The translations under genes were made by a program, and so were the position numbers. Positions 2,072-40,794 of a stretch of 41,066 nucleotides of DNA are shown piece after piece. Position 1 is the stretch's first letter; every line of letters starts with the position of its first letter. The stretch comes from Vulcanimicrobiota bacterium (GTDB taxonomy: Bacteria; Vulcanimicrobiota; Vulcanimicrobiia; Vulcanimicrobiales; Vulcanimicrobiaceae), in contig JAQBPM010000347.1 of assembly GCA_028287525.1 (NCBI GenBank), positions 1 to 41,066 on the forward strand, given 5' to 3'. The notes below the pieces were generated by a model. The model made no database searches. It saw nothing but the letters and a program-made list of their open reading frames with translations, and was not told the DNA's origin.

Positions 2072-2654
2072 GAGTTTCTCCTTCGAGCGGGTGTCCGATT
2101 GCGCGCAGATCCACGGCGTAGCCGGCGACGACGAGCTCGACGCGGTCGACGACGCGCGCGATGCGCTGGACGAGGCGGCCGAGCGTATCGCGAAAGACGC
2201 GTCCCTGCGCGCTCGCCGGGACGACGCCCCAGCCGACTTCTTCGGCGACGATCACGACGTCGGCGCGTGCGGCGGCGACCGCGTCGGCGAGCTCGTTTCC
2301 GGCGCGTTCGAGCGCGGCCGGGTTCGTGACCGAGCCGTCCGCCGTCGCGCGCTCCAAGTCGAACATGATCGCGGCGATCCACGTGCCGAGCGCATCGATG
2401 ATGACGCACTCGTGCGGACCGGCTTCCCGCAGCAGCGCAACGAGCGAGGGTCCCGCAGGCGCGGCGGTTTCGACGACCCGCCACGATGCCGGACGGTCGG
2501 CGCGATGACGTGCGACGCGCTCCGCCATCTCCTCGTCGGCGGGGTCGACGGCGGCCGTCGCCGCGAAGATCACGCTCTTTCCGCAGGACCGAGCGAGGGA
2601 AGCGGCGCGAGCGCTCTTGCCCGAACGGACCGGCCCGAGCACGAGCGACCTCAC
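2061..2654 (-). CDS. cobU: Bifunctional adenosylcobinamide kinase/guanylyltransferase CobU
   Basis: Phosphorylates adenosylcobinamide and transfers GMP to it, giving the substrate of CobS. The 197-residue product has a P-loop at residues 7-14 (GPVRSGKS) and the family segment ARHRADRPASWRVVE around residues 48-62, which carries the nucleotide-acceptor histidine region of CobU/CobP. The C-terminal part has VIVAEEVGWGVVPASAQGR and FRDTLGRLVQRIA, both typical of the family. It starts with GTG at 2654 in a 4-bp GTGA overlap with cobD. Confidence 0.95.
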   Translation of the reverse strand: MRSLVLGPVRSGKSARAASLARSCGKSVIFAATAAVDPADEEMAERVARHRADRPASWRVVETAAPAGPSLVALLREAGPHECVIIDALGTWIAAIMFDLERATADGSVTNPAALERAGNELADAVAAARADVVIVAEEVGWGVVPASAQGRVFRDTLGRLVQRIARVVDRVELVVAGYAVDLRAIGHPLEGETREL

Positions 2655-3754: not shown

Positions 3755-4661
3755 GCGACGTGACGAGTGCGGTGACGATGAGTGCCGCGGCGACGGCGCG
3801 TCCGAGGTGCAGCGCGCGACGCAGGTCGCGCGCCTGCGGTGCGGCGCCGGATCCGAGATGCGCGCGCACGATCGGCGCACCGCCGTACGTCGCCGGTCCG
3901 CCGAGGCGAATGCCGAGCGCACCCGCCATCGCCGCTTCGGGCCAGCCGGCGTTGGGGCTGGCGTGCCGGCCGGCGTGACGCAGCGTCGAAAGTGCGCGCC
4001 GCACATCGCCGCCTGCAAGGGGGGCGCACAGAGCGATCGTGAGCGCGACGAGGCGGGCGGGGAGGTAGTTCGCGACATCGTCGGCTCGCGCGGCAAAACT
4101 GCCGAACCACGTGTACGGCGCTTCGCGATGACCGATCATCGAGTCGAGCGTGCTCACGGCTTTGAAGCCGAGCGCCGCTTCGGTCCCGAACGCCGCCAGC
4201 AAGAGCAGCGGCGTCGCAACGCCGTCACAGAGGCTTTCGGCGAGCGATTCGATCGCCGCCGCGGCGATCGCGCCGGCATCGAGGTCGTCGACGTCGCGCC
4301 CGACGATCTCCCCCAACGCGACGCGCGCAGACGGGACGTCGTCGCGCTCCAGCGCCGCGAGCACGGTCGAAACCGACTCGTCCAGGCTGCGCACCGCGAT
4401 CGTCGAGGCCGCGAGGACGGCGAGCGCAACGGTGCCGCCGACGCGGCGCACGGCTGCGGCGAACAGAACGGAGGCCGTCACGAGCGCGATCGTGAGCGTC
4501 GCGCCGGCGACGAGCTCGACCGCGGCGGGACGCCGGCGCCGCAGCGCGACGCGCTCGGCGCATGCGATCGCCGCGCCCATGAAACGCACGGGATGCGGAA
4601 GCCCCGGAGGATCGCCGATGGCGAGGTCGAGTACGACGCCGGCCAGCACTTCGGCCATCAT
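3732..4661 (-). CDS. cbiB: Adenosylcobinamide-phosphate synthase CbiB
   Basis: Membrane enzyme that attaches aminopropanol (phosphate) to adenosylcobyric acid. The 309-residue product starts MMAEVLAGVVLDLAIGDPPG and carries the CbiB landmarks LPHPVRFMGAAI, ESLAESLCDGVATPLL, KAVSTLDSMIGHR, RADDVANYLPARL and SPNAGWPEAAMAGALGIRLGG. There are several hydrophobic helices. The first ATG (4661) forms an ATGA overlap with the cobQ stop; a second ATG follows at once, at 4658. It overlaps the downstream cobD start by 23 bp. Confidence 0.95.
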   Translation of the reverse strand: MMAEVLAGVVLDLAIGDPPGLPHPVRFMGAAIACAERVALRRRRPAAVELVAGATLTIALVTASVLFAAAVRRVGGTVALAVLAASTIAVRSLDESVSTVLAALERDDVPSARVALGEIVGRDVDDLDAGAIAAAAIESLAESLCDGVATPLLLLAAFGTEAALGFKAVSTLDSMIGHREAPYTWFGSFAARADDVANYLPARLVALTIALCAPLAGGDVRRALSTLRHAGRHASPNAGWPEAAMAGALGIRLGGPATYGGAPIVRAHLGSGAAPQARDLRRALHLGRAVAAALIVTALVTSHARRSRR

Positions 4662-6175
4662 GCGCGCGTGACCGCGCGCGCGGTGAAGTCGCCCAGCACG
4701 CGGTCGACGTCGAGATGGGCCGCGACGTGCGCCGCCCACCGGTCGATGCGCGCGTCCAGCGTCGGACGCCGCACCAGGTCGCGCGCGGCCTCGAGTCCGC
4801 GCGACGCGCGCCACGATCGAACGAACGCGTGCCGCAGCGCGTCGACCGCGAAGAGATCGTGAACGTACGTGCCGACGATCAGCCCGTCGGCCGAGACCGC
4901 GCCGTCGTCCCACGACTCCGCCGCCGATCGCAGGCGCGCAAACGGCAGTTCGCGCGTCCGCGTCACGCCGAAGTGGATCTCGTACCCCTCGAACGCAGCT
5001 GAAGCATCCGGCGCTCCCAGCGTCGTACCGTGCACGCGGCGCGTCGTCTTGCGCGCGTTGAGCGCGGTGGAAGCGTCGAGCAACCCGAGTCCCTCGCCGC
5101 TCTCCGCGCCTTCGACGCCATGCGGATCGTCGATCGCGCGGCCGAGCATTTGATAGCCGCCGCACAGGCCGACGATCGGCCGCTGCCGCTTCGCGAACTC
5201 ACGGATCGTCGCTGCCAGCCCGGCCTCGTGCATCCAACGCAGATCCGCCAGCGTCGATTTGCTGCCCGGCAAAATGACGACGTCGGCGTCGCGGAGGGCC
5301 TCCGGGTGCCGGACCATCCGAAGCGCCAGCGACGGCTCGCGCCGAAGCGGTTCCGCATCCGATAGGTTGGAGCCGTGCGGAAAATCGAGCACCGCGATCC
5401 GCAAGCGGCGCCGTGCACCCGTCTCGTCGTCCCAGGCTGCCGGCCACGGCTGCGCAGCGTAGCGGTCCTCATCCTCGATGTCGAGGTCGGCGAGCCACGG
5501 GATCACGCCGGCGCACGGGACGGCCTCCCTGCGTTCGATCGCTGTGACGCCCGGCGCGAGCAGCGCCGCATCGCCGCGGAACCGGTTGAGCGCGAACGCG
5601 ACGATGCGCGCGCGCTCGAGGGGCTCCAAGAGCGCGAGCGTGCCGACGAGCGCGGCGAACGCACCGCCCCGGTCGATGTCGGCGACGAGCAGACACCGTG
5701 CGTTCGCGGCCTCGGCCATGCGCATGTTGACGATGTCGCCGTCACGGAGGTTGATCTCGGCCGGCGAGCCGGCGCCCTCGATCACCATCACGTCGGCATC
5801 GCGCGCGAGCCGGCTGTACGCGTCGAGGACCACGGGGAAAAGCTCGGCGGTGCGCCGCCGGTGATAGTCCCACGCATCTTCGTCGCCGAGAACGCGGCCG
5901 AGCAGGACGACTTGCGAGCGGCGCTCTCCGGTCGGCTTGAGCAAGATCGGATTCATCTCGGCAACCGGCGTGCGCCGCGCGGCGCAGGCTTGCACGAACT
6001 GTGCGCGGCCGATCTCGGCGCCGTCCGGCGTGACGGCCGCTTCGAGCGACATGTTCTGCGCCTTGAACGGCGCGACACGCAAGCCGCGATCGGAGAGAAT
6101 GCGGCACACCGCCGCAGCGATCAGCGACTTGCCGACGCTCGAAGCGGTGCCCAACACCATGACCGCGGGCGTCAC
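4658..6175 (-). CDS. cobQ: Cobyric acid synthase CobQ
   Basis: Glutamine- and ATP-dependent amidation of four side chains of adenosylcobyrinic acid a,c-diamide. The synthetase domain begins with a P-loop at residues 9-17 (GTASSVGKS), followed by FKAQNMSLEA, EMNPILLKPTGE and VIEGAGSPAEINL. The class I glutamine amidotransferase domain has the nucleophile Cys in GLCGGYQMLG (about C338) and the catalytic His in GTYVHDLF (about H439). Start GTG 6175 gives 505 residues, close to characterised CobQ, and makes a 4-bp GTGA overlap with pduO; an in-frame GTG at 6190 is an alternative. Its presence implies supply of cobyrinic acid diamide, although no corrin-ring genes are nearby. Confidence 0.95.
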   Translation of the reverse strand: MTPAVMVLGTASSVGKSLIAAAVCRILSDRGLRVAPFKAQNMSLEAAVTPDGAEIGRAQFVQACAARRTPVAEMNPILLKPTGERRSQVVLLGRVLGDEDAWDYHRRRTAELFPVVLDAYSRLARDADVMVIEGAGSPAEINLRDGDIVNMRMAEAANARCLLVADIDRGGAFAALVGTLALLEPLERARIVAFALNRFRGDAALLAPGVTAIERREAVPCAGVIPWLADLDIEDEDRYAAQPWPAAWDDETGARRRLRIAVLDFPHGSNLSDAEPLRREPSLALRMVRHPEALRDADVVILPGSKSTLADLRWMHEAGLAATIREFAKRQRPIVGLCGGYQMLGRAIDDPHGVEGAESGEGLGLLDASTALNARKTTRRVHGTTLGAPDASAAFEGYEIHFGVTRTRELPFARLRSAAESWDDGAVSADGLIVGTYVHDLFAVDALRHAFVRSWRASRGLEAARDLVRRPTLDARIDRWAAHVAAHLDVDRVLGDFTARAVTRA

Positions 6176-6750
6176 CAGGCGCGCGACCACGGCGGCCCCG
6201 GGTGCGCTTCGTCGCGCAAACGCGCATCGACGCCGATTCGCGCCTCTACCTTGCGCGCACAGAGCCACAGAACGTCGGAGAGCCGGTTGAGATACTTGAG
6301 CACGTTGACCTGGATCGGCTCGCCCGCGGTGACGAAACGGACGACGTTGCGCTCGGCGCGACGCGCGACGGTTCGGGCGAGATCGAATGCCGCCGATCGG
6401 CGGTCCTCCCCGGAGATGGACCAGTCGCGCAGGATCCCCGGCTCCGCCTCGAGTCGCGCGACGGCGTCGTCGAGCCGCTGCACGAAGGCGTCGCCGATGA
6501 CGGGAATCTCGCGCCGGCTGCCCGGCTTCGTCGAAACCGCCGAGCCGATCGCGAAGAGGTCGCGCTGAATCGCCCGCGCGAGCGCAGCGACTTCCGCGTC
6601 GTCGCAGAACGCGCGGGCCAGTCCGATCGCCGCGTTGAGCTCGTCGATCGACCCGTACGCTTCGACGCGAGCATCCGCTTTGCTGGTACGGCTTCCGCCG
6701 CCCAGCCCCGTGCTGCCGTCGTCCCCGCGACGCGTAGCAATGCTTTTCAT
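6172..6750 (-). CDS. pduO: PduO-type cob(I)alamin adenosyltransferase
   Basis: Transfers the 5'-deoxyadenosyl group of ATP to cob(I)alamin or other reduced corrinoids. The 192-residue protein has the PduO ATP-binding N-terminus (ATRRGDDGSTGLGGGSRTSK), the VEAYGSIDELNAAIGLAR motif, and the C-terminal ARRAERNVVRFV and VNVLKYLNRLSDVLW signatures. It is a single-domain member without a C-terminal GlcG-like (DUF336) domain. ATG 6750 overlaps the btuD stop as ATGA. It sits between import (btu) and late assembly (cob), the logical point for adenosylating imported corrinoid. Confidence 0.94.
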   Translation of the reverse strand: MKSIATRRGDDGSTGLGGGSRTSKADARVEAYGSIDELNAAIGLARAFCDDAEVAALARAIQRDLFAIGSAVSTKPGSRREIPVIGDAFVQRLDDAVARLEAEPGILRDWSISGEDRRSAAFDLARTVARRAERNVVRFVTAGEPIQVNVLKYLNRLSDVLWLCARKVEARIGVDARLRDEAHPGPPWSRAW

Positions 6751-7532
6751 GCGAACGCCTCCTCTCGTTGAAAAACCGGTGCGATCAGCAGCGCTCCGGG
6801 CGCGTGCTCGACGACCTGCATCGGCACGCCGTAGCATGCGGAGAGGTGCTCGGGCGTCAGCACCTCCGCCGGAGTTCCGGCGGCACGAGCCGAGCCCGCG
6901 CCGAGCAGAACGATGCGGTGCGCGAACGCCGCCGCGAGGTTGAGGTCGTGCAGCACGACGACGACGAGCTTTCCGCCCTCCGCCGAGCGGCGCAATCCTG
7001 CCAGCAGCGCCGCGGCGTTGCGGACGTCGAGATGACTGGTCGGTTCGTCGAGCATGATCGCCGGCGTCGACTGCGCGAGCGCCATCGCGATCCACACGCG
7101 CTGCTGTTCGCCCGTGGAGAGCGTCGCGGTGTCGCGCGCCGCAAGCGCGACGAGTCCCATCACGTCGAGCGCGCGGTCGACTTCGTCGAGGTCCTCGCGG
7201 CGCGAGCGGGTCAGCCACCACGGCCGGTGCGCGAGGCGGCCTTGCAGGACGACCTCGCGCACGATCATCGGCTCGCCCGTGACGTCGTCGGCCGGCAGAT
7301 ACGCGAGACGCAGCGCGCGCCGGCGCGCGCTCAGCGCGTGAACGGAAGCGTCGTTCACGAACACGGTTCCCGCCAGCGGTGCGATTCGGCCGGCGAGCGT
7401 CGCGAGCAGCGTGCTCTTGCCGACGCCGTTGGGACCGATGATCGCGACGAGGCTGCCTGGAGCGAGCAGCATGTCGGGGACGTCGACGAGCGGTGTTCGC
7501 CGCCCCGCGACGAGCGCTTTGGTCTCGATCAC
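6747..7532 (-). CDS. btuD: Vitamin B12 ABC importer, ATP-binding protein BtuD
   Basis: ATPase of the corrinoid importer at the inner membrane. The 261-residue protein has Walker A GPNGVGKST at 33-41, a signature helix TLSTGEQQRVWIAMALAQ, Walker B AIMLDEPTSHLD and the H-loop VVVLHDLNLA. Spacing fits FecCD/BtuCD-type importers. It starts with GTG 7532 in a GTGA overlap with btuC. The metal-chelate ABC family also serves siderophores and haem, so substrate is assigned from the B12 riboswitch and neighbouring cob genes. Confidence 0.92.
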   Translation of the reverse strand: MIETKALVAGRRTPLVDVPDMLLAPGSLVAIIGPNGVGKSTLLATLAGRIAPLAGTVFVNDASVHALSARRRALRLAYLPADDVTGEPMIVREVVLQGRLAHRPWWLTRSRREDLDEVDRALDVMGLVALAARDTATLSTGEQQRVWIAMALAQSTPAIMLDEPTSHLDVRNAAALLAGLRRSAEGGKLVVVVLHDLNLAAAFAHRIVLLGAGSARAAGTPAEVLTPEHLSACYGVPMQVVEHAPGALLIAPVFQREEAFA

Positions 7533-8509
7533 GCGATGCGCGTCGTGCGGCCGACGATGGCGAGGAACGCGGGAACGCCGACGATCGAGAGCAGGATCCC
7601 GACGGGAAGTTCGATCGGCGGCGCGGCTCCGCGCGCGACCAGGTCGGCGAGCACGACGACGAGCCCGCCTAGCGGCGCGGATGCGGCCGCGACCCACGGT
7701 ACGCTTCCCCCGACGAGCCGGCGCGCGGCGTGCGGCACGAGCAGTCCGACGAAGCCGATGACTCCGGAGACGCTCACCGCACCGGCGGCGAGCAGCGAGC
7801 TTGCCACAACGACGACGAACTGGGTTCGCATTACGTCGACCCCGACGCCGGCGGCGCGTTCCCGGCCTAAGCGCATCGCGTCGAGCGAGGGCGCGACCGC
7901 CAGCGTCAGCGCGAGTCCGGCGGCGGCCGTGAGCGTCGCCCAACGGACGTCGGGCCAACCGTGCCCGGTCAGGCTTCCGCCGAGCCACGACAAGATGCTC
8001 AGCGACATCCCCGCATGCGGCGCCATCAAGATCGCGAGCGTCGTCAACGCCGCGCACAACGACGATACGCCGACGCCCACGAGGATCAAGCGGTGCTGCG
8101 ACGACGTTCCGGCTCCGCGAGCGACGGCAAGCGACACCGACGTCGCAGCGATCGCGCCGCCGAACGCGGCGAGGGTATACAGCGAAGCCGGCGCGCCGGC
8201 GAGAATCGCGAGCGCGACCGCGAGCCCCGCTCCGCCGCTCGCGCCCATCAGATACGGATCCGCCAGCGGGTTGCGCAGGGCCGTCTGCAGCAGTGCGCCC
8301 GCCGTTCCGAGCGAGCATCCGACCAAGATGCCCGCCGCGATGCGCGGCGCGCGCAGCTCGCGCACCACGTACGCGCCGACGCCCTCGCCGTGCCGAAGGG
8401 CGCCGAGGGCGTCGCTTCCCGAGACGTGTACAGCGCCGATGGTCACGCTTACCGCCGCCGCGGCGACGAGCGCGGCAGCGAGAAGCGACACGGTCGCCGA
8501 GCGCGTCAT
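7529..8509 (-). CDS. btuC: Vitamin B12 ABC importer, permease BtuC
   Basis: FecCD-family permease of 326 residues made mostly of hydrophobic helices, expected to form the corrinoid channel with BtuD. Family landmarks are LRAPRIAAGILVGCSLGTAG, ALLQTALRNPLADPYLMGAS, LSWLGGSLTG, GVIGFVGLLVPHAARRLVG and the C-terminal IELPVGILLSIVGVPAFL. ATG 8509 overlaps the btuF stop as ATGA; longer upstream frames are antisense-like. The substrate assignment rests on operon context. Confidence 0.93.
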   Translation of the reverse strand: MTRSATVSLLAAALVAAAAVSVTIGAVHVSGSDALGALRHGEGVGAYVVRELRAPRIAAGILVGCSLGTAGALLQTALRNPLADPYLMGASGGAGLAVALAILAGAPASLYTLAAFGGAIAATSVSLAVARGAGTSSQHRLILVGVGVSSLCAALTTLAILMAPHAGMSLSILSWLGGSLTGHGWPDVRWATLTAAAGLALTLAVAPSLDAMRLGRERAAGVGVDVMRTQFVVVVASSLLAAGAVSVSGVIGFVGLLVPHAARRLVGGSVPWVAAASAPLGGLVVVLADLVARGAAPPIELPVGILLSIVGVPAFLAIVGRTTRIA

Positions 8510-9267
8510 CGCCACCGTGCAGCTCCGGCGACAAGCATCTCCAACACGTCCGCGACGCGCGGGCCCGGCCGCAGCAGATCGTCTTCGTCGATCTCGACGA
8601 TGCGTCCGGCGCGGACGGCGTCGATCCGCTCCCACGGCGCACCGAGCAGCGCAGGGTGCGGGTTCGGCAACACGAGGATCTCCGGGTGCACGGCGACCAG
8701 ACGCTCCTGCGAATATTGCGGCCACAACAGCGGCAGGTCGCCTGCTACGTTGCGAAGATTCGCCATGCGCAACAGATCGTCGATGTACGTGCCCCGGCCC
8801 GCGGTGCGCAAGTCGCTGATGCCGACCGCTACGAACGCGCTCGCCGTGCGGCTGCGCGCGGCCTGCGCGGAGAGACCGGCCAACCGGCGCTCGATGACGC
8901 GATGAAGGGCGCGCGCCTCGCGAGCGTGTCCGCTCAGCACGCCGAGCCGCTCGATCGCCGCGAAGTCGCCGCGCAGATCGCTCACGTCGAGCCGTTCCGT
9001 CCGCACTCCGGCGCGCGTCAAGTCGGCCAGGATCCGGTCCTCGTACGGGATGCCGACGACGACGTCGGGATGCAGCGCGAGGACGGCCTCCGCGCTCACC
9101 TCACGCATTCCGCCGACCCGAGGCAGCCGCGCGGCGCCGGCGGGCCGATTGCTGTTGGCGTCGACGCCGACCACGGCCGGTCCGGCGCCGATCGCGAAGA
9201 GATCCTCGGTCAACGCCGGTGCCAACGAGACGATGCGCAGCGCGAGAACGAGCGAAAGGCAGATCAC
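8506..9267 (-). CDS. btuF: Corrinoid-binding periplasmic protein BtuF
   Basis: Class III solute-binding protein that would deliver corrinoid from the outer-membrane receptor to BtuCD. The 253-residue product has a short hydrophobic N-terminus (MICLSLVLALRIVSLAPALT), the family opening RIVSLAPALTEDLFAIGAG, then VVGVDANSN and LPRVGGMREVSAEAVLALHPDVVVG. The export signal is short and merges with the domain start, so the mature N-terminus is uncertain. Start GTG 9267 overlaps the btuB stop as GTGA. Confidence 0.9.
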   Translation of the reverse strand: MICLSLVLALRIVSLAPALTEDLFAIGAGPAVVGVDANSNRPAGAARLPRVGGMREVSAEAVLALHPDVVVGIPYEDRILADLTRAGVRTERLDVSDLRGDFAAIERLGVLSGHAREARALHRVIERRLAGLSAQAARSRTASAFVAVGISDLRTAGRGTYIDDLLRMANLRNVAGDLPLLWPQYSQERLVAVHPEILVLPNPHPALLGAPWERIDAVRAGRIVEIDEDDLLRPGPRVADVLEMLVAGAARWR

Positions 9268-11108
9268 CGGGTGCCGAATTCGATTTCGAACGTGCGGCCC
9301 GGCGCGGGATAACCGAGGATCGGCATGGAGCGCTCATCACCGATGTCTCGCGAGCGCAGCGTCAGCACGCCGCCCGCGACGTGCGCGCGAACGAAGCCGT
9401 CGACGAGGGTCTGCCCACCGCGCAGGCCTGCGGACTCGCGGTGCGGCCCTTGCACGCGCGCGGAAACTCCCACGCCGACGCCGGTGCTCCGCAGTGGGCG
9501 CTCCATCGAGAGCACCACGTCGAGCACGGGCACGTACGCGAGCCGGCTCGGTTGCGTGCCGGGCGAGAGGTTCTGCGCGCGATACGTGTCGACCACGCTC
9601 ACCGACGAGGTGACGCCGCTGTGCGCTTCCGGCGCGGTGCGGGCGTCGAAGCGCAAGCCGCGGACTGCCGCGCGAGCGACGTTCGCCGGAAAGAATCTCC
9701 CGTTCAGCGAGAGCGTCTGGATCAGGTTCACCGAGTCGCGCGCGAAGTATCCGGCGCTGACGTTTGCCGCGGCTCCCGTCGCGATCGAGGCATCCGTTGC
9801 GACCGAACGCTCGGGGAGCAGCGCGGGATTGGCGAATCCCGGATAGAACAGCTCGTTGAGCGTAGGGACCCGGAACGCCGTCGCATGCGCGGCGCGCAGC
9901 CGCAGCGCGCCGCTTCTCGCGACGAAGCCGAGCGACGGCAGAAGCGCCGAGCCCTGGCCGCCGTCGTTCTCGCCGCGCAAGCCGCCCTCGAGCGAGAGAT
10001 GCCCGCCGAGCGTCGTCTCGAACTGCCCGTACAGCGCGACGCTGCTCGCGCGCGCGCCAATTTGCGTGGCCGGAGAGGGAGCGATGAGCGCACTGTCCGC
10101 TGAGGCATCGAGGCCGAGCAGCACCGTACCGCTGCCCGCGGTTGAGAGACGCTTGAGCGCCAGCCGCGAGCGCGACGTATTCGTGTCGCTTTCCGGGCCG
10201 GACGACGGATCGTCGTAGAGCAGTCGACGCGTCACGACCGACGCGGTGAGCGACGTGTCGGCGGCGACGCCGGTGCGCTGCAGCGTTACGGACGCCGTGA
10301 GCCGCGATGCGTCTTGCCGCGCGTTGGGAGATGGGAACTTGAGGCTCCCGGGGACGCCGAGCGCGGCGCTGTCGATGGACAGCCGCGTCTCCGCCTGGAG
10401 CGCAGCCGGTTCACCGATGCGATAGGCGACGGTCGCCGCGTTCGTGCGCGCGTCGGCGTTCCGCCGAACGCCGGCCGGGAAACCGTCTTGTTTTGGATAC
10501 GCGAACGCGTTCTGCGCGGTGTGCTCTTCGACGCTCGCCTGCAGCCGCGCTCGCGTCACGCTTGCGCGCACGTCGCGATTCGCGAAAGACCCCTCGCCGA
10601 TCGAAACGGCCGACGGCGCGCCGGTAACGATGTTGATGATGCCGCCGACGGCGGATGAGCCGTAGAGCGTCGAGCCTGCCGATTCGACGATTTCGACGCG
10701 GCGCACGTCCACGGTGGAAAGTGTCGCGAGATCGGCGCTGCCGCTGGTCGGATCGGCGATCGGGATGCCGTTGACGAGAACGAGCGTCTGCGACGAACTG
10801 GTGCCGAGGATGCCGTAGTTCGTTTGCGCGCCGAACGCGCCGTACCCGAACGTCAGGACGCCGGGTACGAAGCGCAGGACGTCCGCCACCGTGCGCATGC
10901 CGTACGACTCGATCGCCGCGCGATCGACGACGTACGTGCGCTTCGGCGTTGCGTCGGAGGGAACGTCGTGGCGTTCCGCGGTGCTTACCCGTCCGATCTC
11001 CGGGACCGGACTGGCTGATGGGGTGGAAACGCTCTGCGCGAAGGCGGGTGCCGCCAACGCGAGCGCACCTGCGGCAGCGATGCCGAAGGCTCGACCGAAA
11101 CGAAACAA
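9264..11108 (-). CDS. btuB: TonB-dependent outer-membrane corrinoid receptor (BtuB-like)
   Basis: The 614-residue protein has a signal peptide (cleavage near APAFAQS), then an N-terminal plug domain with YVVDRAAIESYGMRTVADVL, VNGIPIADPTSGSADLATL, VEIVESAGSTLYGSSAVGG and IINIVTG, followed by a long beta-barrel-like region. It ends in an aromatic-containing strand (RTFEIEFGTR), suitable for BAM recognition. The TTG start at 11108 is supported by AGGAG nine bases upstream. As first gene of the operon directly under the cobalamin riboswitch, corrinoid transport is the most likely role; receptor sequence alone would not exclude other metal chelates. Confidence 0.92.
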   Translation of the reverse strand: MFRFGRAFGIAAAGALALAAPAFAQSVSTPSASPVPEIGRVSTAERHDVPSDATPKRTYVVDRAAIESYGMRTVADVLRFVPGVLTFGYGAFGAQTNYGILGTSSSQTLVLVNGIPIADPTSGSADLATLSTVDVRRVEIVESAGSTLYGSSAVGGIINIVTGAPSAVSIGEGSFANRDVRASVTRARLQASVEEHTAQNAFAYPKQDGFPAGVRRNADARTNAATVAYRIGEPAALQAETRLSIDSAALGVPGSLKFPSPNARQDASRLTASVTLQRTGVAADTSLTASVVTRRLLYDDPSSGPESDTNTSRSRLALKRLSTAGSGTVLLGLDASADSALIAPSPATQIGARASSVALYGQFETTLGGHLSLEGGLRGENDGGQGSALLPSLGFVARSGALRLRAAHATAFRVPTLNELFYPGFANPALLPERSVATDASIATGAAANVSAGYFARDSVNLIQTLSLNGRFFPANVARAAVRGLRFDARTAPEAHSGVTSSVSVVDTYRAQNLSPGTQPSRLAYVPVLDVVLSMERPLRSTGVGVGVSARVQGPHRESAGLRGGQTLVDGFVRAHVAGGVLTLRSRDIGDERSMPILGYPAPGRTFEIEFGTR

Positions 11109-11117
11109 CTCGGTTCA

Positions 11118-11122
11118 CTCCT
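11118..11122 (-). promoter_or_regulatory. Shine-Dalgarno for the TTG start of btuB
   Basis: On the minus strand AGGAG lies nine bases before the TTG at 11108. It decides the non-ATG start and is the element expected to be masked or exposed by the upstream riboswitch. Confidence 0.7.
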
Positions 11123-11148
11123 GCCCTTACGCGGGGCTGGTGCGTGCT

Positions 11149-11325
11149 CGTCGTAGTCTCGGTATCCTGACTTGCGGATCGTGGCTTGTGCCGGGCCTTC
11201 CCAGTCCGAAGACCAGTGACCGACGGCGACTCCCCGCTTACAGTGGCGCGACCGTTCCGGATTCTCACCGGATTCCCGCGCTACGACGCCGACCAGCTTC
11301 CCGTCCGGCATCGAGAGTCCTCCGG
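11149..11325 (-). ncRNA. Cobalamin (AdoCbl) riboswitch in the btuB leader
   Basis: Reading the minus strand, the canonical conserved blocks appear in order: GGGAATCCGGTGAGAATCC, then GCGCCACTGTAA, then CACTGG followed by CTGGGAAGG, and finally AGTCAGGATACC (B12 box, complement of 11161-11172). An 8-bp outer helix pairs CGTCGTAG (complement 11281-11288) with CTACGACG (complement 11149-11156). The 5' border is uncertain because a competing helix may extend to about 11320. It lies 40 bases before the btuB start, so it probably controls btuB translation and, through coupling, the operon. Binding of a corrinoid would be expected to lower expression. Confidence 0.95.
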
Positions 11326-11365
11326 CCGAAAGTGTCTCGCGGTTCGCGGCGAACGGAGCGCTGAA

Positions 11366-12202
11366 ATGACTCACATCGTGCGTCGGGCCGCGCATCTCGT
11401 GTTTGCGCTGGGCTTCCTGCTCCTCCCCGCGGCTGCATACGCCGCGCCGTCGGTCGTCCTGGCGACGACGACGAGTACCCAGGACACGGGCCTGCTCGAC
11501 GTGCTCGTTCCGGCGTTTACGCAGGCGTCCGGCTATCAGGTGAAGACCATCGCCGTCGGCACCGGCGCAGCCCTCGCGATGGGCGACCGCGGCGATGCGG
11601 ACGTTCTGCTCGTGCACGCGCCGAGCGCCGAGAATGCGTACATGGCGAAGGGGCGCGGTCTCTCGCGCGCGATCGTCATGCACAACGCGTTCGTCGTGGT
11701 CGGACCCGCTGCGGATCCGGCTCACGTGCGCGGCGCGGCGACCGCCGAAACGGCGTTCGCCGCGATCGCCCGCGCCGGCGCGCCGTTCGTCTCGCGCGCG
11801 GACGAGTCCGGAACGAACGTCAAGGAGCTGGCGCTGTGGAAGGCCGCGTCGGCGACGCCGGCGGCGCCGTGGTACGTGAAAACCGGCAGCGGCATGGCCG
11901 ACACGCTGCACGTCGCCTCGCAGAAGGCCGCGTACACGCTGACCGACGACGGAACGTTCCTCTCGCAGCGCGCGACGCTCGCGCTCGTGCCGCTGGTGGA
12001 GGACGCGCGCGACCTGCGCAACGTCTATCACGTCATCGTCGTCAAACCGCTGGAAGGCCGCGTCTCGAACGAGCCGGGCGCGCGCGCGTTCGCGGCGTTC
12101 GTGATCTCGGCCGCCGGTCAAGGCATTATCGCGACGTACGGCCGCGAGCGGTTCGGCCGGCCGCTCTTCACGCCCGACGCCGGCACGGAGATGGGACACT
12201 AG
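11366..12202 (+). CDS. tupA: Tungstate/molybdate ABC importer substrate-binding protein TupA
   Basis: Periplasmic oxyanion-binding protein of 278 residues with a signal peptide ending near AAAYAAPS. The mature start VVLATTTSTQDTGLLDVLVP contains the TTTS oxyanion motif (residues 34-37) of the TupA/WtpA-like group. VGTGAALAMGDRGDADVLLVHAP, FVSRADESGTNVKEL and WYVKTGSGMADTL are also family landmarks. ATG 11366 has GGAG seven bases upstream. It is transcribed away from the cobalamin operon and heads a three-gene importer. Similarity favours tungstate, but molybdate cannot be excluded. Confidence 0.92.
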   Translation: MTHIVRRAAHLVFALGFLLLPAAAYAAPSVVLATTTSTQDTGLLDVLVPAFTQASGYQVKTIAVGTGAALAMGDRGDADVLLVHAPSAENAYMAKGRGLSRAIVMHNAFVVVGPAADPAHVRGAATAETAFAAIARAGAPFVSRADESGTNVKELALWKAASATPAAPWYVKTGSGMADTLHVASQKAAYTLTDDGTFLSQRATLALVPLVEDARDLRNVYHVIVVKPLEGRVSNEPGARAFAAFVISAAGQGIIATYGRERFGRPLFTPDAGTEMGH

Positions 12203-19332: not shown

Positions 19333-22300
19333 TCAGTCGCCGGCGGGCCGTTCACCCAGCGTAGCGATGCGGACGGTGCGGCGGTCGCCGTTGGAACCGC
19401 TGACCGCAAGAAGCGTGCCGTCGGATGCGAACGCCATGCTTGCCGCGAGCAGCGTCTCTTCGTCGTACCGCCGCACCTTCGGGTGAACCGCTTTCGAGCG
19501 ATGGAGCCGCTCGCGCAGCCGCTCCACGACGACGTAGAGCACGGGCACGACGATGAGGTTGAGCAGCGTCGAGAGGATCATCCCGCCGAAGAGCGCCGTA
19601 CCGAGCGAGTTGCGGCTCGCGCTTCCGGCGCCGGTCGCGGTGACGAGCGGAACGATCCCGAAGACGAACGCGAGCGACGTCATCAAGATCGGGCGCAGCC
19701 GCGTCCGCGCGGCTTGCTGCACCGCGTCCGCCGCGTCGCGCCCGCCGGCTCGCAGCTGATTCGCGAACTCGACGATCAGGATCGCGTTCTTGCTGGCGAG
19801 TCCGACCAGCATGACGAAGCCGATCTGCACGAACACGTCGCTCGAGAGGTGGCGCAGGTTTACCGCCCACAGCGCGCCCAAGATCGCGAGCGGCACCGCA
19901 AGCAGGATCACCAGCGGGTCGAGGAAGCTCTCGTACTGCGCGGCCAGCACCAGGAACACCATGAAGACGCCCAAGCCGAAGATCAGCGCCGCGGCGCTGC
20001 CGCCTTCGATCTGATCCAGCGTCAAGCCGGTCCACTCGAAACGCGTTCCGGACGGAAGGCGGCTCTGCGCGACGTTCTCCATCGCGGCGATCGCGTCGCC
20101 GGAGCCGACGCCCGGTTTGGGTTGGCCGTCGATCTCGATCGAACGGAACAGATCGTAGTGGGTGATCGTCGGCGGTGCCTTCGTGCTCGTGACGCGCACC
20201 AGCGTGCTCAGCGGCACCATGCCGCCGGCGCTCGTGCGGACGTACGCCGACGCAAGATCGTCCGGCCGGGAGCGAAATTGCCGGTCCGCCTCCACGTAGA
20301 CGCGGTAGGAGCGGTTGAGGTAGTCGAAATCGTTGACGTACTGCGATCCGAAGTACGCCTGCATCGTCCCGAAGACGTTGTCGATCGGCACGTGCAAGGC
20401 CTGAATTTTCTGGCGATCGACTTCGAGCGCCAACCGCGGAGAGTCGGCGCGGAACGTCGTGAAGACGGCGCTCAGCGCGGGGTCGGCGTTTGCCGGGCCC
20501 AGCAGTCCGTACGTGCTTGCGGTCAGCGCCGAGATCCCGACATTCGCGGTATCGAGCACTTCGAATTGAAAACCGCCGAAGTTCCCGACCCCTTGGATCG
20601 CGGGCGGGTTGAAGATGTACGCCGATCCGCCCGGCACGCCGAAGTAGAGCGGCTGCAGGCGCGCGATGATCGACGCATAGGTGTGGTCGCGCCCCGCGCG
20701 GTCGCCCCACGGACGCAGCGGCAAGAAGATCAGCGAGTGGTTCGACGCCGGGCCGAAGAAGTTGAACCCGTCGATCTGGAAGGTGCCTTCGATCTCCGGC
20801 GCGTTCGCGCGGGCGATCGCCGCGATCCGGTCGGCAAAGCGCCGTTCGCCTTCGATCGAGGTCCCTTCCGGCGTCTGAATCATCGTGACGAGATAGCCTT
20901 GGTCTTCGTCCGGGATGAAGCCGGTCGTCGTGGTCTTGAACGTGTACGCCGTGAGCGCTAAGGCGGCGACGAAGACGCCGAGGACCACGAATCGCCACGC
21001 CACGATGAGCGGAAGCACGCGGCGATACAGCCGGCGCACCGATTCGATGGCGGCTTCGACCGGCCGCAGGAAACGCGGCGGCGCGTCGACCGGCCGCGAG
21101 AGCAGCAGGGCCGAGAGCGTCGGCGTGAGCGTGAGCGCGATGAAGAGGGAGATCGAGATCGAGGCGGCGATCGTCAGCGCGAACTGTTTGTAGAGCAGCC
21201 CAGTCGATCCCGGGAAGAACGCGACCGGCACGAACACGGCCAGCAGCACGAGCGAGGTCGCGATGACGGCCCCGGTGATCTCGCGCATCGCAGCCTCGGC
21301 GCCTTCGAAGGCACCCATCTTCTTGTCTTGCACGAAGCGGGCGATGTTCTCGATGACGACGATCGCGTCGTCGACGACGAGCCCCGTCGCGAGCGTGAGT
21401 CCGAAGAGCGTCAGCGTGTTGATCGAGAAGCCGAGCGCCTTCATCAGCGCGAACGTCCCGATGAGCGAGATCGGGATCGTCATCAGCGGGATCAGCGTCA
21501 TCCGCCAGTTCTGCAGGAAGAGAAAGATGACCAGGACGACCAGCGCGATCGAGACCGCAAGCGTGATCGTGACTTCCTTGATCGACTCGGTAACGAACAG
21601 CGTCGGGTCGAACGGGATCACGTAGTGCACGCCCGGAGGAAACGTCTTCGAGAGCTCGTTCAGCCGCGCGCGCACGGCGTGCGCGCTCTCGAGCGCGTTT
21701 GCGTCGGGCTGCTGCGTGACGCCCATGCCGATCGTCACGGCGCCGTTCCAGCTGGTGAACGTCGAGTAGTCTTCGGCACCGAGTTCCACGCGGCCGACGT
21801 CGCGGACGCGCACGGCTCCGCCGTCCGGGTCCGAGCGCAGAACGATGTTGCGAAACTGCTCCGGATTGCCTAGGCGTCCGGTCGCGCTCAGGCCGATCTG
21901 AAACGGCTGCGTCCGGCTCGTCGGCGACGCGCCCAGCGCTCCGGCCGCGACCTGGACGTTCTGGGAGCTCAGCGCCGCGACGACGTCGGGCGCGGTGAGA
22001 TTGTTCTGCGCGAGCCGGTGCGGATCGAGCCATAGTCGCATCGCATACTTGCGGCTGCCGAAGAGCAGGACGTTACCGACCCCCTTGACGCGTTTGATCG
22101 CGTTGAGCACGTGGATCTCGGTGAAGTTGCTGAGCCAGCCGTAGTCGTATTGCGGGTTGTCCGAGACCATGCCGATGCCGAGGATGAACGCGGAGCTGCT
22201 CTTCTGGACGACGACGCCGGTGCGCTGCACCTCGGCGGGAAGCCGGCCGGTCGCGCTGAGGACGGCGTTCTGGACGTCGGCCTCCGCGAGGTCGATGCTT

Positions 22301-22593
22301 TTCGCAAGATCGAAGGTGGCGGTGATCGTGACCGATCCGTCGGCGTTGCTGCTCGAGGTGATGTACCGCAACCCGGGCACGCCGTTCACCGCCTCTTCGA
22401 GCGGTGTCGTCACTGATGCTTCGACGGTGGCGGCGTCCGCGCCGAGGTACTGCGCGGTCACGGTGATGACCGGCGGAGCGATCTTCGGATACTGCGAGAT
22501 CGGGAGCGTCGGAATCGCTACGAGCCCCGCGGTGAAGATGATCAGGGAACAAACCGCCGCGAAGATCGGACGGCGCAGGAAAAATCCAATCAT
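19333..22593 (-). CDS. RND-family multidrug efflux pump inner-membrane transporter (HAE1/AcrB type)
   Basis: The 1086-residue protein opens with MIGFFLRRPIFAAVCSLIIF and shows the AcrB-like layout: IPTLPISQYPKIAPPVITV, two large periplasmic loops, and the proton-relay aspartates in GLTLATGLVVDDAIVVIENI near residue 405. FPGSTGLLYKQFALTIA and GLASKNAILIVEFANQLR are further family landmarks. Twelve membrane helices are expected. The pump core ends near VVERLRERLHRSK; the remaining 45 or so residues form an extra tail resembling one WD40 blade (MAFASDGTLLAVSGS then RRTVRI). No adaptor or outer-membrane factor gene is adjacent. It is divergent from a MarR regulator, the probable controller. Substrates unknown. 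Confidence 0.95.
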   Translation of the reverse strand: MIGFFLRRPIFAAVCSLIIFTAGLVAIPTLPISQYPKIAPPVITVTAQYLGADAATVEASVTTPLEEAVNGVPGLRYITSSSNADGSVTITATFDLAKSIDLAEADVQNAVLSATGRLPAEVQRTGVVVQKSSSAFILGIGMVSDNPQYDYGWLSNFTEIHVLNAIKRVKGVGNVLLFGSRKYAMRLWLDPHRLAQNNLTAPDVVAALSSQNVQVAAGALGASPTSRTQPFQIGLSATGRLGNPEQFRNIVLRSDPDGGAVRVRDVGRVELGAEDYSTFTSWNGAVTIGMGVTQQPDANALESAHAVRARLNELSKTFPPGVHYVIPFDPTLFVTESIKEVTITLAVSIALVVLVIFLFLQNWRMTLIPLMTIPISLIGTFALMKALGFSINTLTLFGLTLATGLVVDDAIVVIENIARFVQDKKMGAFEGAEAAMREITGAVIATSLVLLAVFVPVAFFPGSTGLLYKQFALTIAASISISLFIALTLTPTLSALLLSRPVDAPPRFLRPVEAAIESVRRLYRRVLPLIVAWRFVVLGVFVAALALTAYTFKTTTTGFIPDEDQGYLVTMIQTPEGTSIEGERRFADRIAAIARANAPEIEGTFQIDGFNFFGPASNHSLIFLPLRPWGDRAGRDHTYASIIARLQPLYFGVPGGSAYIFNPPAIQGVGNFGGFQFEVLDTANVGISALTASTYGLLGPANADPALSAVFTTFRADSPRLALEVDRQKIQALHVPIDNVFGTMQAYFGSQYVNDFDYLNRSYRVYVEADRQFRSRPDDLASAYVRTSAGGMVPLSTLVRVTSTKAPPTITHYDLFRSIEIDGQPKPGVGSGDAIAAMENVAQSRLPSGTRFEWTGLTLDQIEGGSAAALIFGLGVFMVFLVLAAQYESFLDPLVILLAVPLAILGALWAVNLRHLSSDVFVQIGFVMLVGLASKNAILIVEFANQLRAGGRDAADAVQQAARTRLRPILMTSLAFVFGIVPLVTATGAGSASRNSLGTALFGGMILSTLLNLIVVPVLYVVVERLRERLHRSKAVHPKVRRYDEETLLAASMAFASDGTLLAVSGSNGDRRTVRIATLGERPAGD

Positions 22594-36622: not shown

Positions 36623-36982
36623 ATGAAGTCCCTGCCGGTCCTAGCCGCGACGGCCCTGGTAGTCGCGGCGTTCGGTCACGAGAACCCCGTCGCGGCGCAG
36701 GCGACCGCGGCCCCCAAGGCCGCCACGGTCACCGTCAAAAACGATGCCTTCATGCCGGCGATCGTCCACGTGCGTGCGGGGCAAACGGTCACCTTCGTCA
36801 ACGGCGACGACGAAACGCACACGGTCACGTCGGACACGGCAGTGTTCGACTCCAAGAACGTCGACGCGAACGGACGCTTCGCATACACGTTCGCGAAGCC
36901 CGGGAGCTATCCGTATCACTGCGCGATCCATACATTCATGAAAGGTACGGTCATCGTGGATCCGAGCGGAGCTGCACCATGA
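36623..36982 (+). CDS. Periplasmic cupredoxin (plastocyanin/amicyanin-like)
   Basis: The 119-residue protein has a signal peptide (cleavage near VAAQATA) and a single type 1 copper domain. The copper ligands are visible: H66 in DDETHTV, then C100, H103 and M106 in YHCAIHTFMKG. The short ligand loop (C-x2-H-x2-M) is the amicyanin type. It probably carries one electron in the periplasm; its partner is unknown. It overlaps the following phosphatase gene by 4 bp (ATGA). Confidence 0.92.
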   Translation: MKSLPVLAATALVVAAFGHENPVAAQATAAPKAATVTVKNDAFMPAIVHVRAGQTVTFVNGDDETHTVTSDTAVFDSKNVDANGRFAYTFAKPGSYPYHCAIHTFMKGTVIVDPSGAAP

Positions 36983-37587
36983 TCGCGGTCCTCCGCGCCG
37001 CCGTCGCGGCGGCGTTCGTGTTCGTTCCCGCAGCGTCTTGGGCGCAGCAGGCTGCTCCGCTGCGCGGCGCCGCCCTGGTCGATGCGCTGCGCGGCGGCGG
37101 CTACGTCATCCTCATGCGCCATGCGGCGACGGAGGCGAAGGTCGATGCGCCGACGGTCGATGTCGCCGACTGCACCACCCAGCGGAACCTCTCCCCAGAA
37201 GGCCGAGCGACGGCGCGAGCGATCGGAGCGCGCGTGACCGCGTTGGCGCTCCCCATCGCCGACGTCAAGGCGAGCCCGTTCTGCCGCGCTCTCGAATCGG
37301 CACGTTTGATCTTCGGTCGGGCGGACCCGGTCGCGGGTCTGCACGAGTTTGCCGTGAAGGATGCGGCGGCCAGCGCCGACGCCGCCGCGGCATTACGGCC
37401 GCTGCTCGTTGCGTCACCGCCCGCGGGCAAAGACACCGTGGTCGTGACGCACGGCTTCAACGTGAAGTCGGTCACCGGGCTCGACGTGCTCGAAGGCGAA
37501 GCGGTTGTCGTGAAACCGGACGCGCACGGCGGCTACACCATCGTCGGCGACATCAAGGCTGACGACTGGAGCACTTTCACCACCTGA
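36979..37587 (+). CDS. Exported histidine phosphatase superfamily protein
   Basis: The 202-residue protein has a signal peptide ending near SWAQQA and the branch 1-like phosphatase motifs: ILMRHAATE (R47, H48 nucleophile), SPFCRALESARLIFG (R103) and VVVTHGFN (H158). The Ala after RH replaces the usual Gly, common in periplasmic members. The export signal argues against alpha-ribazole-phosphate phosphatase (CobC), which is cytoplasmic and missing from the cobalamin operon. It is co-translated with the cupredoxin. Substrate unknown. Confidence 0.88.
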   Translation: MIAVLRAAVAAAFVFVPAASWAQQAAPLRGAALVDALRGGGYVILMRHAATEAKVDAPTVDVADCTTQRNLSPEGRATARAIGARVTALALPIADVKASPFCRALESARLIFGRADPVAGLHEFAVKDAAASADAAAALRPLLVASPPAGKDTVVVTHGFNVKSVTGLDVLEGEAVVVKPDAHGGYTIVGDIKADDWSTFTT

Positions 37588-37596
37588 CGCTCGGCT

Positions 37597-39126
37597 TTAC
37601 GGCGGCGGAGCGTTCTGCCGCAGGAGCGGGGTGATAGCGAGGGCCGCGATCGTCAGTCCACCGAGGATCAGCCACGCTTCGTTGAAGGCCACCGTCAGCG
37701 CCGCGCGTTCGACCAGCGGACGTGCGAAGGCCAATTGCGCCGGGCCGACGCCGTGCAGCGGCGTTCCGCGGAAGAGCGAGGTGGGAAGACCGACGAACGC
37801 GGCCGCATCTCGATTCCCTGCCAGCAGCATCGTCGTCAAGTGCGACGCGATTGCGGGCGGCCTCACGTTGATGACGGTATCGACGATCCCGATGCCGATC
37901 GCTCCGCCGAGATTGCGCATGAGGTTGAGGAGCGCGCTGGCGTTGGCGAGCTGACCCTGCGGCTGAGGATCGAGCGCCGCGGTCGTGAGCGGGAGAATGC
38001 AGAACATCGCCGCGGCGCCGCGCAGCACTTGCGGCCAGAAGAGCGCGGCGGCGTCGCTTTCCGGAGTCGAGAAGGCGTTGAGCACGAGGCCGGCACCGAA
38101 GAGGGCGAGGCCGACCGCCGTGAGCCAGGCCGCTGAGAACCGCTTCGAGGCCAGCGTTGCCAGCGGAGCCGCGATGAGCTGCGTCGCGCCCATCACGGTC
38201 ATGATCAGACCGATCTCGAGCGAGGAGTGTCTGCGAACGAATCCCAGAAACAGAGGCAGAACGTACACGCAGCCGTAGAGGGCGCTCCCGACGACGAAGT
38301 TCAGCGCACATGCCGCCGCGAAGCTGGTGCTCTTGAGCGGCGTCAAGTCGACGAGCGGAAGTCGCGCCCCGACGGAGCGAGTCACGAAGACGGCGCCGGC
38401 CAGCACCGTGCCGCAACACAGACCGAGGTCGCGCCAACTCCGCCAATGATCGCCTGGGGCGAGCTTCAGGAGCACTTGCAGCATCGTCAGGCTTCCCGCA
38501 AGCCCGAGCAGCGCCGGCAGGTCGATCGCCTTCCACGCTCGAGGATCGGGCTCGTCGACGTGAACGGCGGCGTACGCCGTCGCGGCTACGACGATGCCGG
38601 TCGGGACGTTGATGAGGAACACCCAATTCCACGAGAGCCGCTCGCCGATGAAGCCGCCCACGAGCGGGCCCAGCGACGGCGCAAGCATCGCGACACCGCC
38701 TGCGAGCAGCAATGCGCGCGCCTGAAGCTGCTTCGGGAAGATGCGATAACCGGCGGAGAACACCGTCGGGATGATGACCCCGCCGCAGAGACCCTGTATG
38801 GTGCGCCAGACGACGAGCGAAGCGAAATCGGATGACGCGGCGCAGCCGGCGCTTGCGATGACGAAGCCGATCGTCGCGGCGCTGAAGGCGCCCGTCGTTG
38901 AGAGCGCGCGAGAGAGTCGCCCGCTGAGCGCGACCGCGATGACCTCGCCGGTCAAGTACGCGGTTTGAATCCAGCTCAGGCGGTCGAGCCCGGTGTGAAG
39001 GGCAGAGCCCATCGCCGGCAGGACGGCGGAGACGACCTGGATGTCGAGGAGCGCGACGAACATCCCGACGCACATCGCGCCGAAGCCGAGCCAGTCGCGA
39101 ACGGCCCCGTTGGAGCGCGCCTTCAC
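37597..39126 (-). CDS. DHA2-family MFS exporter in the type III PKS operon
   Basis: The 509-residue protein has 14 predicted helices and DHA2 landmarks: FVALLDIQVVSAVLPAMGSA (helix 1), WIQTAYLTGEVIAVALSGRL, RTIQGLCGGVIIPTVFSAGY, LAPSLGPLVGGFIGERLSWN and WVFLINVPTG. Start GTG 39126 forms a GTGA overlap with the YceI gene; the upstream frame is antisense to YceI. As the last gene of a PKS-YceI-MFS operon it may export the polyketide product. Substrate is inferred from context only. Confidence 0.92.
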   Translation of the reverse strand: MKARSNGAVRDWLGFGAMCVGMFVALLDIQVVSAVLPAMGSALHTGLDRLSWIQTAYLTGEVIAVALSGRLSRALSTTGAFSAATIGFVIASAGCAASSDFASLVVWRTIQGLCGGVIIPTVFSAGYRIFPKQLQARALLLAGGVAMLAPSLGPLVGGFIGERLSWNWVFLINVPTGIVVAATAYAAVHVDEPDPRAWKAIDLPALLGLAGSLTMLQVLLKLAPGDHWRSWRDLGLCCGTVLAGAVFVTRSVGARLPLVDLTPLKSTSFAAACALNFVVGSALYGCVYVLPLFLGFVRRHSSLEIGLIMTVMGATQLIAAPLATLASKRFSAAWLTAVGLALFGAGLVLNAFSTPESDAAALFWPQVLRGAAAMFCILPLTTAALDPQPQGQLANASALLNLMRNLGGAIGIGIVDTVINVRPPAIASHLTTMLLAGNRDAAAFVGLPTSLFRGTPLHGVGPAQLAFARPLVERAALTVAFNEAWLILGGLTIAALAITPLLRQNAPPP

Positions 39127-39740
39127 GGCAGAGCTGATGCGTTTGCTCCCAAACCGTGGACTTGGCCGGCCGCAGTGACGTCGATGGCGACGGTATTGCC
39201 CACGTGCAAGAAGAACGTACTCGGATCCCGCATCCCCCATTGCACGTAGGGGACGGAGAACTGTGCGTGCGCCGTCATGCTTGCACCATTCCCCTCGAGC
39301 GTGACGTGCAGGGTCATCGCGTGGCTGCCGCCGTGAATCGCGAGCACGCCGTCGACGTCCAGTGCCGAGGGCTTGCCGTTCGCCAGCTGCACCTGCACGC
39401 GGCTCGGGGTAAACACGGCCAACGGATAGGTTTGCACCTGAAGGACGTTGTTTCGCATGTTGGCATCGCGCTTCGCATCGCCGCTCTGGCCGCTCGCGAG
39501 ATCGACGACGACGGTTCCTGACGCCTGCCCGGTCGCCGGATCGAAGCGGATCGTTCCCTGCTTGAATGCGAACGTGCCCTTCACCGTGTGCAGCGTCGCC
39601 CCGAGCGTGAATTCCACCGTCGAGTGCGCCGGATCGAGGTCGAGCGACAGGGTGTCGGCGCGCGCTGCTTCGGGCTGTGCCGTCGCAAAGAAGCAGAAAG
39701 CGGACAGGACGACGGGCGCGAGCTTCCGCAGCGACATCAT
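39123..39740 (-). CDS. YceI-family periplasmic lipid/isoprenoid-binding protein
   Basis: The 205-residue protein has a signal peptide (cleavage near AARADTLS) and a YceI beta-barrel: LDLDPAHSTVEFTLGATLHT, VKGTFAFKQGTIRFDPATGQ, GDAKRDANMRNNVLQVQTYP and LAIHGGSHAMTLHVTLEG. YceI barrels bind polyisoprenoid or other long hydrophobic molecules. The start (ATG 39740; second ATG at 39737) comes one base after the PKS stop, and the stop overlaps the MFS start. This tight coupling suggests it carries or protects a hydrophobic PKS product in the periplasm. Confidence 0.93.
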   Translation of the reverse strand: MMSLRKLAPVVLSAFCFFATAQPEAARADTLSLDLDPAHSTVEFTLGATLHTVKGTFAFKQGTIRFDPATGQASGTVVVDLASGQSGDAKRDANMRNNVLQVQTYPLAVFTPSRVQVQLANGKPSALDVDGVLAIHGGSHAMTLHVTLEGNGASMTAHAQFSVPYVQWGMRDPSTFFLHVGNTVAIDVTAAGQVHGLGANASALP

Positions 39741-39741
39741 C

Positions 39742-40794
39742 TCACCAACGCAACAGCACGAACTCGGAGCAGAAGCCTGGCCCCATCGCGCCCAGCAGCC
39801 CGTACGTCCCCGGCGGCGGCCGTCGATCCCGCATCACCGTATCGAGGACGGCGATCACCGACGCCGACGAGAGATTTCCCATCTCGCGCAAGCAGTCCCA
39901 TGACGCGGCAAGCGCGTCATCGGGAAGGTCGAGCGCCGCAGCGAGCGCTTCGAGAATCTTCGGGCCTCCGGTGTGCAGGACCCACGACCCGATGTCGCCG
40001 CGCGTCAGCCCGCCCTCGGCGAGAAACGCATCGACGTCGGCACCGAGATGCGTGCGAACGAAGCGCGGAAGCTCGGCGGACAAGACGATCTTGAAGCCGC
40101 TCTCGGAGATCTCCCAGCCCATCACGTGCTCGGAGTTGGGATAGAACACCGAGCGCGTAGCGAGCACTGCCGGCCCGGCGGCCCGCACCTGCGAGCCGGC
40201 GATCAGGACCGCGCCGGCTCCGTCGCCGAACAATCCGCTCGAGATCAGATTCGCCACCGAGACGTCGTCGCGCTGAATCGTAAGCGAGCAGATCTCGACG
40301 GCCAGCACCGCTGCGACCTCGTTCGGAAACGCCAGAACGTAGTCTGCCGCTCGTGCCAAAGCAGCGGCGCCTGCGACACAGCCCAAGCCGAAGATCGGAA
40401 CCCGTTTGATCGTCGGCGCGAGACCCATTCGATTGACGAGCCGCGCGTCGATCGAAGGACTGGCGATCCCCGTGATCGACGTAAAAAATAACGCGCCTAA
40501 GTCCCTCGGCGCCATTCCGGCGCGGGTGAGCGCGCTCGAGAGGGCGCGTTCCCCGAGCTCCTGCGCGAGCGCGATCCACTGGTCGTTCGCCTCTCCCCAA
40601 GACGTCAGACGCGCGTACGCCTCGATCGGCAACGCCAAGTGACGAGCGCTAACTCCGGCGCGTGCATGGAGGCGCCGCAGCGCGGCTTCGCTAGGGAGCT
40701 TCGTGCGCCAGAAGCTCTGCAGCTCGCCGACGATCGCGTCTTGCTCGTACCGGTGTTCCGGTAAGGCGAGTGCCGCGCTTGCGATGCCGCTCAT
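39742..40794 (-). CDS. Type III polyketide synthase (chalcone/stilbene synthase family)
   Basis: The 350-residue protein shows the type III PKS catalytic triad: C139 in FGLGCVAGAAA, H274 in VLHTGGPKIL and N307 in REMGNLSSASVIAVL. FGDGAGAVLIAG and the C-terminal GAMGPGFCSEFVLLRW are also diagnostic. It condenses malonyl-CoA with a starter acyl-CoA; bacterial relatives make alkylresorcinols, alkylpyrones or tetrahydroxynaphthalene, and the starter here is unknown. ATG 40794 is preferred over an in-frame GTG at 40803; neither has a clear ribosome site. It heads the operon with YceI and an MFS exporter. No methyltransferase or oxidase partner is adjacent. Confidence 0.95.
   Translation of the reverse strand: MSGIASAALALPEHRYEQDAIVGELQSFWRTKLPSEAALRRLHARAGVSARHLALPIEAYARLTSWGEANDQWIALAQELGERALSSALTRAGMAPRDLGALFFTSITGIASPSIDARLVNRMGLAPTIKRVPIFGLGCVAGAAALARAADYVLAFPNEVAAVLAVEICSLTIQRDDVSVANLISSGLFGDGAGAVLIAGSQVRAAGPAVLATRSVFYPNSEHVMGWEISESGFKIVLSAELPRFVRTHLGADVDAFLAEGGLTRGDIGSWVLHTGGPKILEALAAALDLPDDALAASWDCLREMGNLSSASVIAVLDTVMRDRRPPPGTYGLLGAMGPGFCSEFVLLRW

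Follow-up and report, generated by a model that had tools for sequence, protein, structure and literature searches.

Introduction

Does a type III polyketide synthase (PKS), whose gene is followed almost without a gap by those of a YceI-family protein and an MFS exporter, share a pathway with them, or have the three come to lie side by side by chance? For most YceI proteins the natural ligand has yet to be settled, and a YceI clade genetically tied to one biosynthetic route names a specific candidate. Among 5.39 million open-access papers none mentions "type III polyketide synthase" together with "YceI", subscription papers lying outside the scope of this search. The locus comes from a soil-type bacterium of the family Vulcanimicrobiaceae whose draft assembly is 81% complete and has 502 contigs; the window, meaning the whole stretch of DNA analysed (41,066 nucleotides), is its contig C210.

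Organisation of the operon

The three genes form an operon on the minus strand, in the order type III PKS, YceI and DHA2/EmrB-type MFS exporter, with the following features:

39742..40794, minus strand: type III PKS of the alkylpyrone/alkylresorcinol synthase type, 350 aa from the ATG, 353 from the GTG at 40803
40378..40380, minus strand: codon of catalytic Cys139 (read in the sequence; invariant column)
40114..40116, minus strand: codon of Trp227, putatively the resorcinol-versus-pyrone position of ArsB/ArsC
39973..39975, minus strand: codon of catalytic His274 (read in the sequence; invariant column)
39874..39876, minus strand: codon of catalytic Asn307 (read in the sequence; invariant column)
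39741..39741, minus strand: lone nucleotide separating the PKS stop from the YceI start; relatives have an FAD hydroxylase gene (about 1.1 kb) at this site
39123..39740, minus strand: YceI-family protein, predicted to bind lipid, 205 aa with signal peptide (PF04264, model, clade)
37597..39126, minus strand: DHA2/EmrB-type MFS exporter, 509 aa (TIGR00711, 272 bits)

The PKS frame opens with an ATG, has an in-frame GTG upstream, and closes with a TGA at 39744-39742. The YceI gene runs from an ATG at 39740 to a TGA at 39125-39123, which overlaps in a GTGA with the GTG start of the MFS gene at 39126; the latter ends at 37597. Coordinates together with Pfam and NCBIfam matches confirm this layout as originally predicted, except that the span then assigned to the whole unit, 39742-40794, is that of the PKS alone and leaves YceI and MFS outside. 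Just 263 bp remain upstream of the PKS, the window being the whole contig, and within them starts a divergent ORF (ATG at 41024, MISQLGATAYGSPL) that runs off the contig, so that the operon probably begins with the PKS. On the downstream side a histidine-phosphatase gene (36979-37587) converges with the operon. A promoter and terminator scan found none, and no ORF for an EmrA-type adaptor stands beside the MFS gene. Neither a methyltransferase nor an FAD hydroxylase is present in the operon, which is thus not an alkylquinone operon of the srs/pkq type.

The contig is probably binned correctly, since the closest match to its CobT comes from the same genus (70%) and the operon agrees in GC (0.669) and tetranucleotides with the rest of the host genome. 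A mis-binned contig was rejected on the CobT match, and a recent transfer from an Acidobacterium on the composition; any transfer is therefore old. Elsewhere in the window are found cobalamin-related genes (1010-12199: CobT, CobQ-like, adenosyltransferase, ABC ATPase, TonB receptor) and an AcrB-type RND efflux pump (19333-22593).

The type III polyketide synthase

The PKS is matched by both Chal_sti_synt domains of Pfam, N (5.1e-16) and C (3.4e-17). Its catalytic triad is intact, as had been proposed: Cys139, His274 and Asn307 can be read in the sequence and occupy columns that are invariant in an alignment of 158 PKSs (residues are numbered from the ATG; alignment numbers are 2 lower, the match there starting at residue 3). 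Its closest relative of solved structure is M. tuberculosis Pks11 (4jao; phmmer 336.8 bits, E 1.3e-99), with full-length similarity (residues 1-350 over 1-352), the same active-site motifs and a Trp at the same position. Pks11 is a long-chain alkylpyrone synthase (PMC6274091), and by analogy the product of the window PKS is probably long-chain and oily.

The choice between resorcinol and pyrone is set at a position represented by W281 in ArsB and G284 in ArsC (PMC6274091). Trp227 was tentatively mapped to this position by an RppA-type alignment, where it faces a Tyr of 1u0m, and by a nine-residue spacing to Met293 of ArsC (PMC6274091). The Trp is shared by the window PKS (as in ArsB) and by Pks11, a pyrone synthase, and for this reason does not settle resorcinol versus pyrone. 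Chalcone synthase numbering was also used to place Trp227 at the resorcinol-directing Trp of ArsB. We know of no YceI or exporter partner of Pks11.

The YceI protein and the exporter

The second protein matches PF04264 at 3.5e-26 (92.8 bits against a cut-off of 23.7). The signal peptide claimed for it is evident at the N-terminus as a basic start, a hydrophobic run and ARA|DT; no lipobox was found there on reading the sequence. Its AlphaFold model (pLDDT 84) has TT1927b of Thermus, BcnA of Burkholderia and E. coli YceI as the nearest solved folds and matches the lipocalin-like barrels 1wub, 5ixh and 1y0g. Octaprenyl chains or ubiquinone-8 are bound by YceI proteins (PMC9113575); by analogy, a resorcinol or a lipid quinone would suit the window protein as ligand.

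The exporter matches MFS_1 of Pfam (2.2e-35) and efflux_EmrB of NCBIfam (the TIGR00711 score above, against a cut-off of 230). Homologues 53-56% identical occur in 5 of the 98 other genomes of the family (6 of 99 with the window). Four of these six MFS-bearing genomes, namely the window's own, G433, G028 and G434, have the exporter adjoining a type III PKS, and in two of the four it is divergent from a PKS-ICMT pair. Loci of this divergent kind (L064:10869-12927 and L324:2328-4392), where the PKS-ICMT pair is native, continue with a secreted thioredoxin-like protein.

Conservation of the locus

The exact PKS-YceI-MFS trio occurred nowhere besides the window genome in all surveys. Ten genomes of the same genus contain neither a close PKS nor a homologue of the neighbouring histidine-phosphatase gene; the stretch may therefore be accessory, and no empty site can be aligned within the genus because the phosphatase gene is missing there as well. 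Across the 99-genome family a close PKS is found, besides the window, in G433 only. Other type III PKSs of the family are 30-43% identical and, in those examined, are followed by an ICMT-type methyltransferase; the more distant PKSs of the Acidobacteria class (36-42%) likewise have a PKS-ICMT order.

A scan of 84,980 species genomes retrieved 19 PKS loci at 53-63% identity, 7 of them, mostly in Acidobacteria, with the order PKS - FAD hydroxylase - YceI. The window differs from this same-strand Acidobacteria unit in having the PKS and YceI genes and not the FAD gene. With 80 further loci from a 299-genome Acidobacteria-class sample included, the set comprises 87 loci: 26 PKS-FAD-YceI (all three on the same strand, with FAD and YceI domain matches 18-218 bp apart), 16 PKS-FAD, 39 with neither and 6 too short to judge. 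YceI near the PKS is thus missing in 55 of the 81 loci with sufficient downstream sequence. In one Acidobacteria-class genome, G315 (L337:2644-3938), YceI comes immediately after a PKS truncated at the contig end, with no FAD gene between them. Conserved adjacency, on which the original prediction was to be judged, accordingly fails for the exact trio, which is unique, and holds for the recurrent link of PKS and YceI.

The YceI subfamily of the window is present in 106 of the 299 Acidobacteria-class genomes, more precisely in 82 of the 143 with a PKS at E<=1e-60 and in 24 of the 156 others (Fisher p 2e-14, uncorrected for relatedness). Among 17 further YceI loci, one of which is cut by a contig end, 12 of the 16 assessable have the FAD gene beside YceI, one of these also with the PKS; in the other four, YceI adjoins the PKS directly without FAD once (the G315 locus) and neither gene three times. 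Furthermore, all five examined genomes with a close PKS elsewhere (G362, G079, G351, G307 and G236) keep the FAD-YceI pair.

The YceI clade

The YceI tree places the window protein in a single clade (98/95) with every FAD- or PKS-linked Acidobacteria protein, to the exclusion of 40 ordinary YceIs, among them those of the family to which the window belongs. Inside the clade, linked members are mixed with unlinked ones, which indicates that the operon has been rearranged repeatedly. An ordinary YceI placed beside a PKS by chance is ruled out by the clade position and the repeated linkage. The functional link of PKS and YceI that had been proposed gains from these results: the linkage is conserved and the window YceI falls in a clade associated with PKS and FAD genes, and a shared pathway is therefore likely.

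A different role is suggested by BcnA-type YceI proteins, which scavenge antibiotics and, with cytochrome b561, serve in lipid peroxide defence (PMC9113575). Given that the MFS protein falls in the multidrug EmrB subfamily, YceI and MFS could be a general envelope-stress or drug-sequestration pair that follows the PKS by chance, ubiquinone or lipid peroxides being the YceI ligand. BcnA and LcoA (YceI with cytochrome b561) do have the same fold as the window protein, but their operon partner is another: no b561 gene adjoins the window YceI, which lies outside the ordinary clade, and the conserved partners in relatives are the FAD hydroxylase and the PKS. We consider such a pair unlikely, and favour the shared pathway.

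The sister locus and the history of the operon

The nearest PKS relative is found in the Candidatus Eremiobacterota (Vulcanimicrobiota) genome bog_1502, the same locus as G433 above and of the window's family; in the PKS tree its PKS and that of the window are sisters (support 99). The order there is PKS, FAD, YceI remnant, MFS (56% identical to that of the window) and thioredoxin-like protein, the last without a Pfam match. The tail of the FAD reading frame holds the start of a YceI, with a signal-like stretch and the first strand (E 1e-4), which then degenerates, through an apparent frame change and internal loss, directly before the MFS gene. This remnant (L034:3262-3452) thus seems to continue the FAD frame.

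From this gene order the window operon most likely derives from a PKS-FAD-YceI-MFS unit that has lost FAD. The simplest and most likely history, as judged from the sequences, has such an ancestor, from which the window lineage lost FAD while YceI degenerated in that of bog_1502. It is well supported, but draws on two loci, in either of which a draft-assembly error is possible; the direction of the FAD change, a loss, we infer. Neither FAD nor YceI strictly needs the other, since the window has YceI without FAD and bog_1502 has FAD without an intact YceI. The original prediction was right in that the usual partners are absent from the operon, and went too far in taking this for a different architecture, as FAD is a member of the unit conserved in relatives and has most likely gone missing only here.

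The FAD protein of relatives is related to ubiquinone hydroxylases and geranylgeranyl reductases and, by analogy with alkylquinone pathways (PMC9927152, PMC10896814), probably hydroxylates the ring. An FAD hydroxylase elsewhere in the assembly was sought and rejected, the best candidate, on C359, being only a 31% homologue and a broad GG-reductase-like flavoprotein. With a draft genome the gene could lie in the missing ~19%, or have been removed by an assembly error, and the operon would then be a normal PKS-FAD-YceI-MFS quinone unit. This we think very improbable, given a clean one-base junction at which the ends of both PKS and YceI are complete, a divergent ORF flanking the PKS upstream, and an assembly in which no close FAD homologue was found.

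If FAD was indeed lost, YceI could be a leftover, belonging to the FAD hydroxylase (quinone) branch and having no present role for the PKS product. The persistence of FAD-YceI pairs apart from the PKS and the missing FAD gene would agree with this, but the window YceI is full length, keeps the columns invariant across 20 homologues and stays tightly packed between PKS and MFS, and a second PKS-YceI pair without FAD exists in G315. A leftover YceI is therefore distinctly unlikely, and a YceI in present use with the PKS is the reading carried forward.

Proposed function

We lean, with limited assurance, towards one operon that would make a long-chain phenolic lipid, bind it in the periplasm and export it, and from which the FAD gene of an ancestral four-gene unit has been lost. 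The best reading of the pathway is one related to polyketide-quinone pathways; product class, YceI ligand and MFS cargo we infer as follows. The PKS would lengthen a fatty acyl starter by malonyl-type units before cyclising the chain to an alkylresorcinol or alkylpyrone, the DHA2 exporter would carry this compound, or one derived from it, over the inner membrane to the periplasm, and the YceI barrel would keep the oily molecule there, either to hand it on to the outer membrane or to shield it as a redox or antioxidant lipid. In the ancestral PKS - FAD hydroxylase - YceI - MFS unit, the hydroxylase may have turned the ring towards a hydroquinone or quinone. With FAD lost from the window operon, the ring of the product is probably left unhydroxylated, unless it is modified in trans by another enzyme.

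A broader proposal, which we put forward tentatively and with more doubt than confidence, is that across Acidobacteria and Eremiobacterota the YceIs of the linked clade specialise in carrying type III PKS lipids (resorcinols, pyrones or polyketide quinones) in the periplasm, YceI replacing the EmrA-type adaptor. If true, diderm bacteria would possess a route by which phenolic lipids or non-isoprenoid quinones are made, carried and exported. The genetic tie of this YceI clade to one biosynthetic route also suggests how poorly soluble phenolic lipids or polyketide quinones get to the Gram-negative envelope and could carry the polyketide-quinone theme beyond Actinobacteria.

Relation to known systems

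Operons of PKS, methyltransferase and hydroxylase make alkylquinones (PMC9927152). The srsABC and pkqABC operons of this kind have a related type III PKS, which makes a long-chain resorcinol that is passed to modifying enzymes; the window, in contrast, lacks methyltransferase and hydroxylase and has YceI and MFS, and its relatives have FAD and YceI without a methyltransferase. The hidABC (hierridin) cluster and planctomycetal methyltransferase-oxidoreductase-PKS operons resemble the window in being compact around an alkylresorcinol-type PKS, but have methyltransferases upstream of the PKS, and an MFS partner is not described for them (PMC10896814). In 'Saltatorellus ferox', a lipoprotein and a lipid/isoprenoid-binding protein, the latter neither called YceI in the text nor analysed further there, are encoded upstream of the methyltransferases and PKS (PMC10896814). 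In a Planctomycetota locus of our set (L042:6328-7995) the PKS is immediately preceded by a weak match to YceI and by ORFs resembling a lipoprotein and an ICMT; it resembles the arrangement in 'Saltatorellus ferox', and the pattern may therefore recur. A larger cluster at L043:1657-7297, with L044 and L045 similar, has the order PKS - ICMT - ORF - acyl-carrier-like protein - AMP ligase - FAD, which suggests dedicated starter loading.
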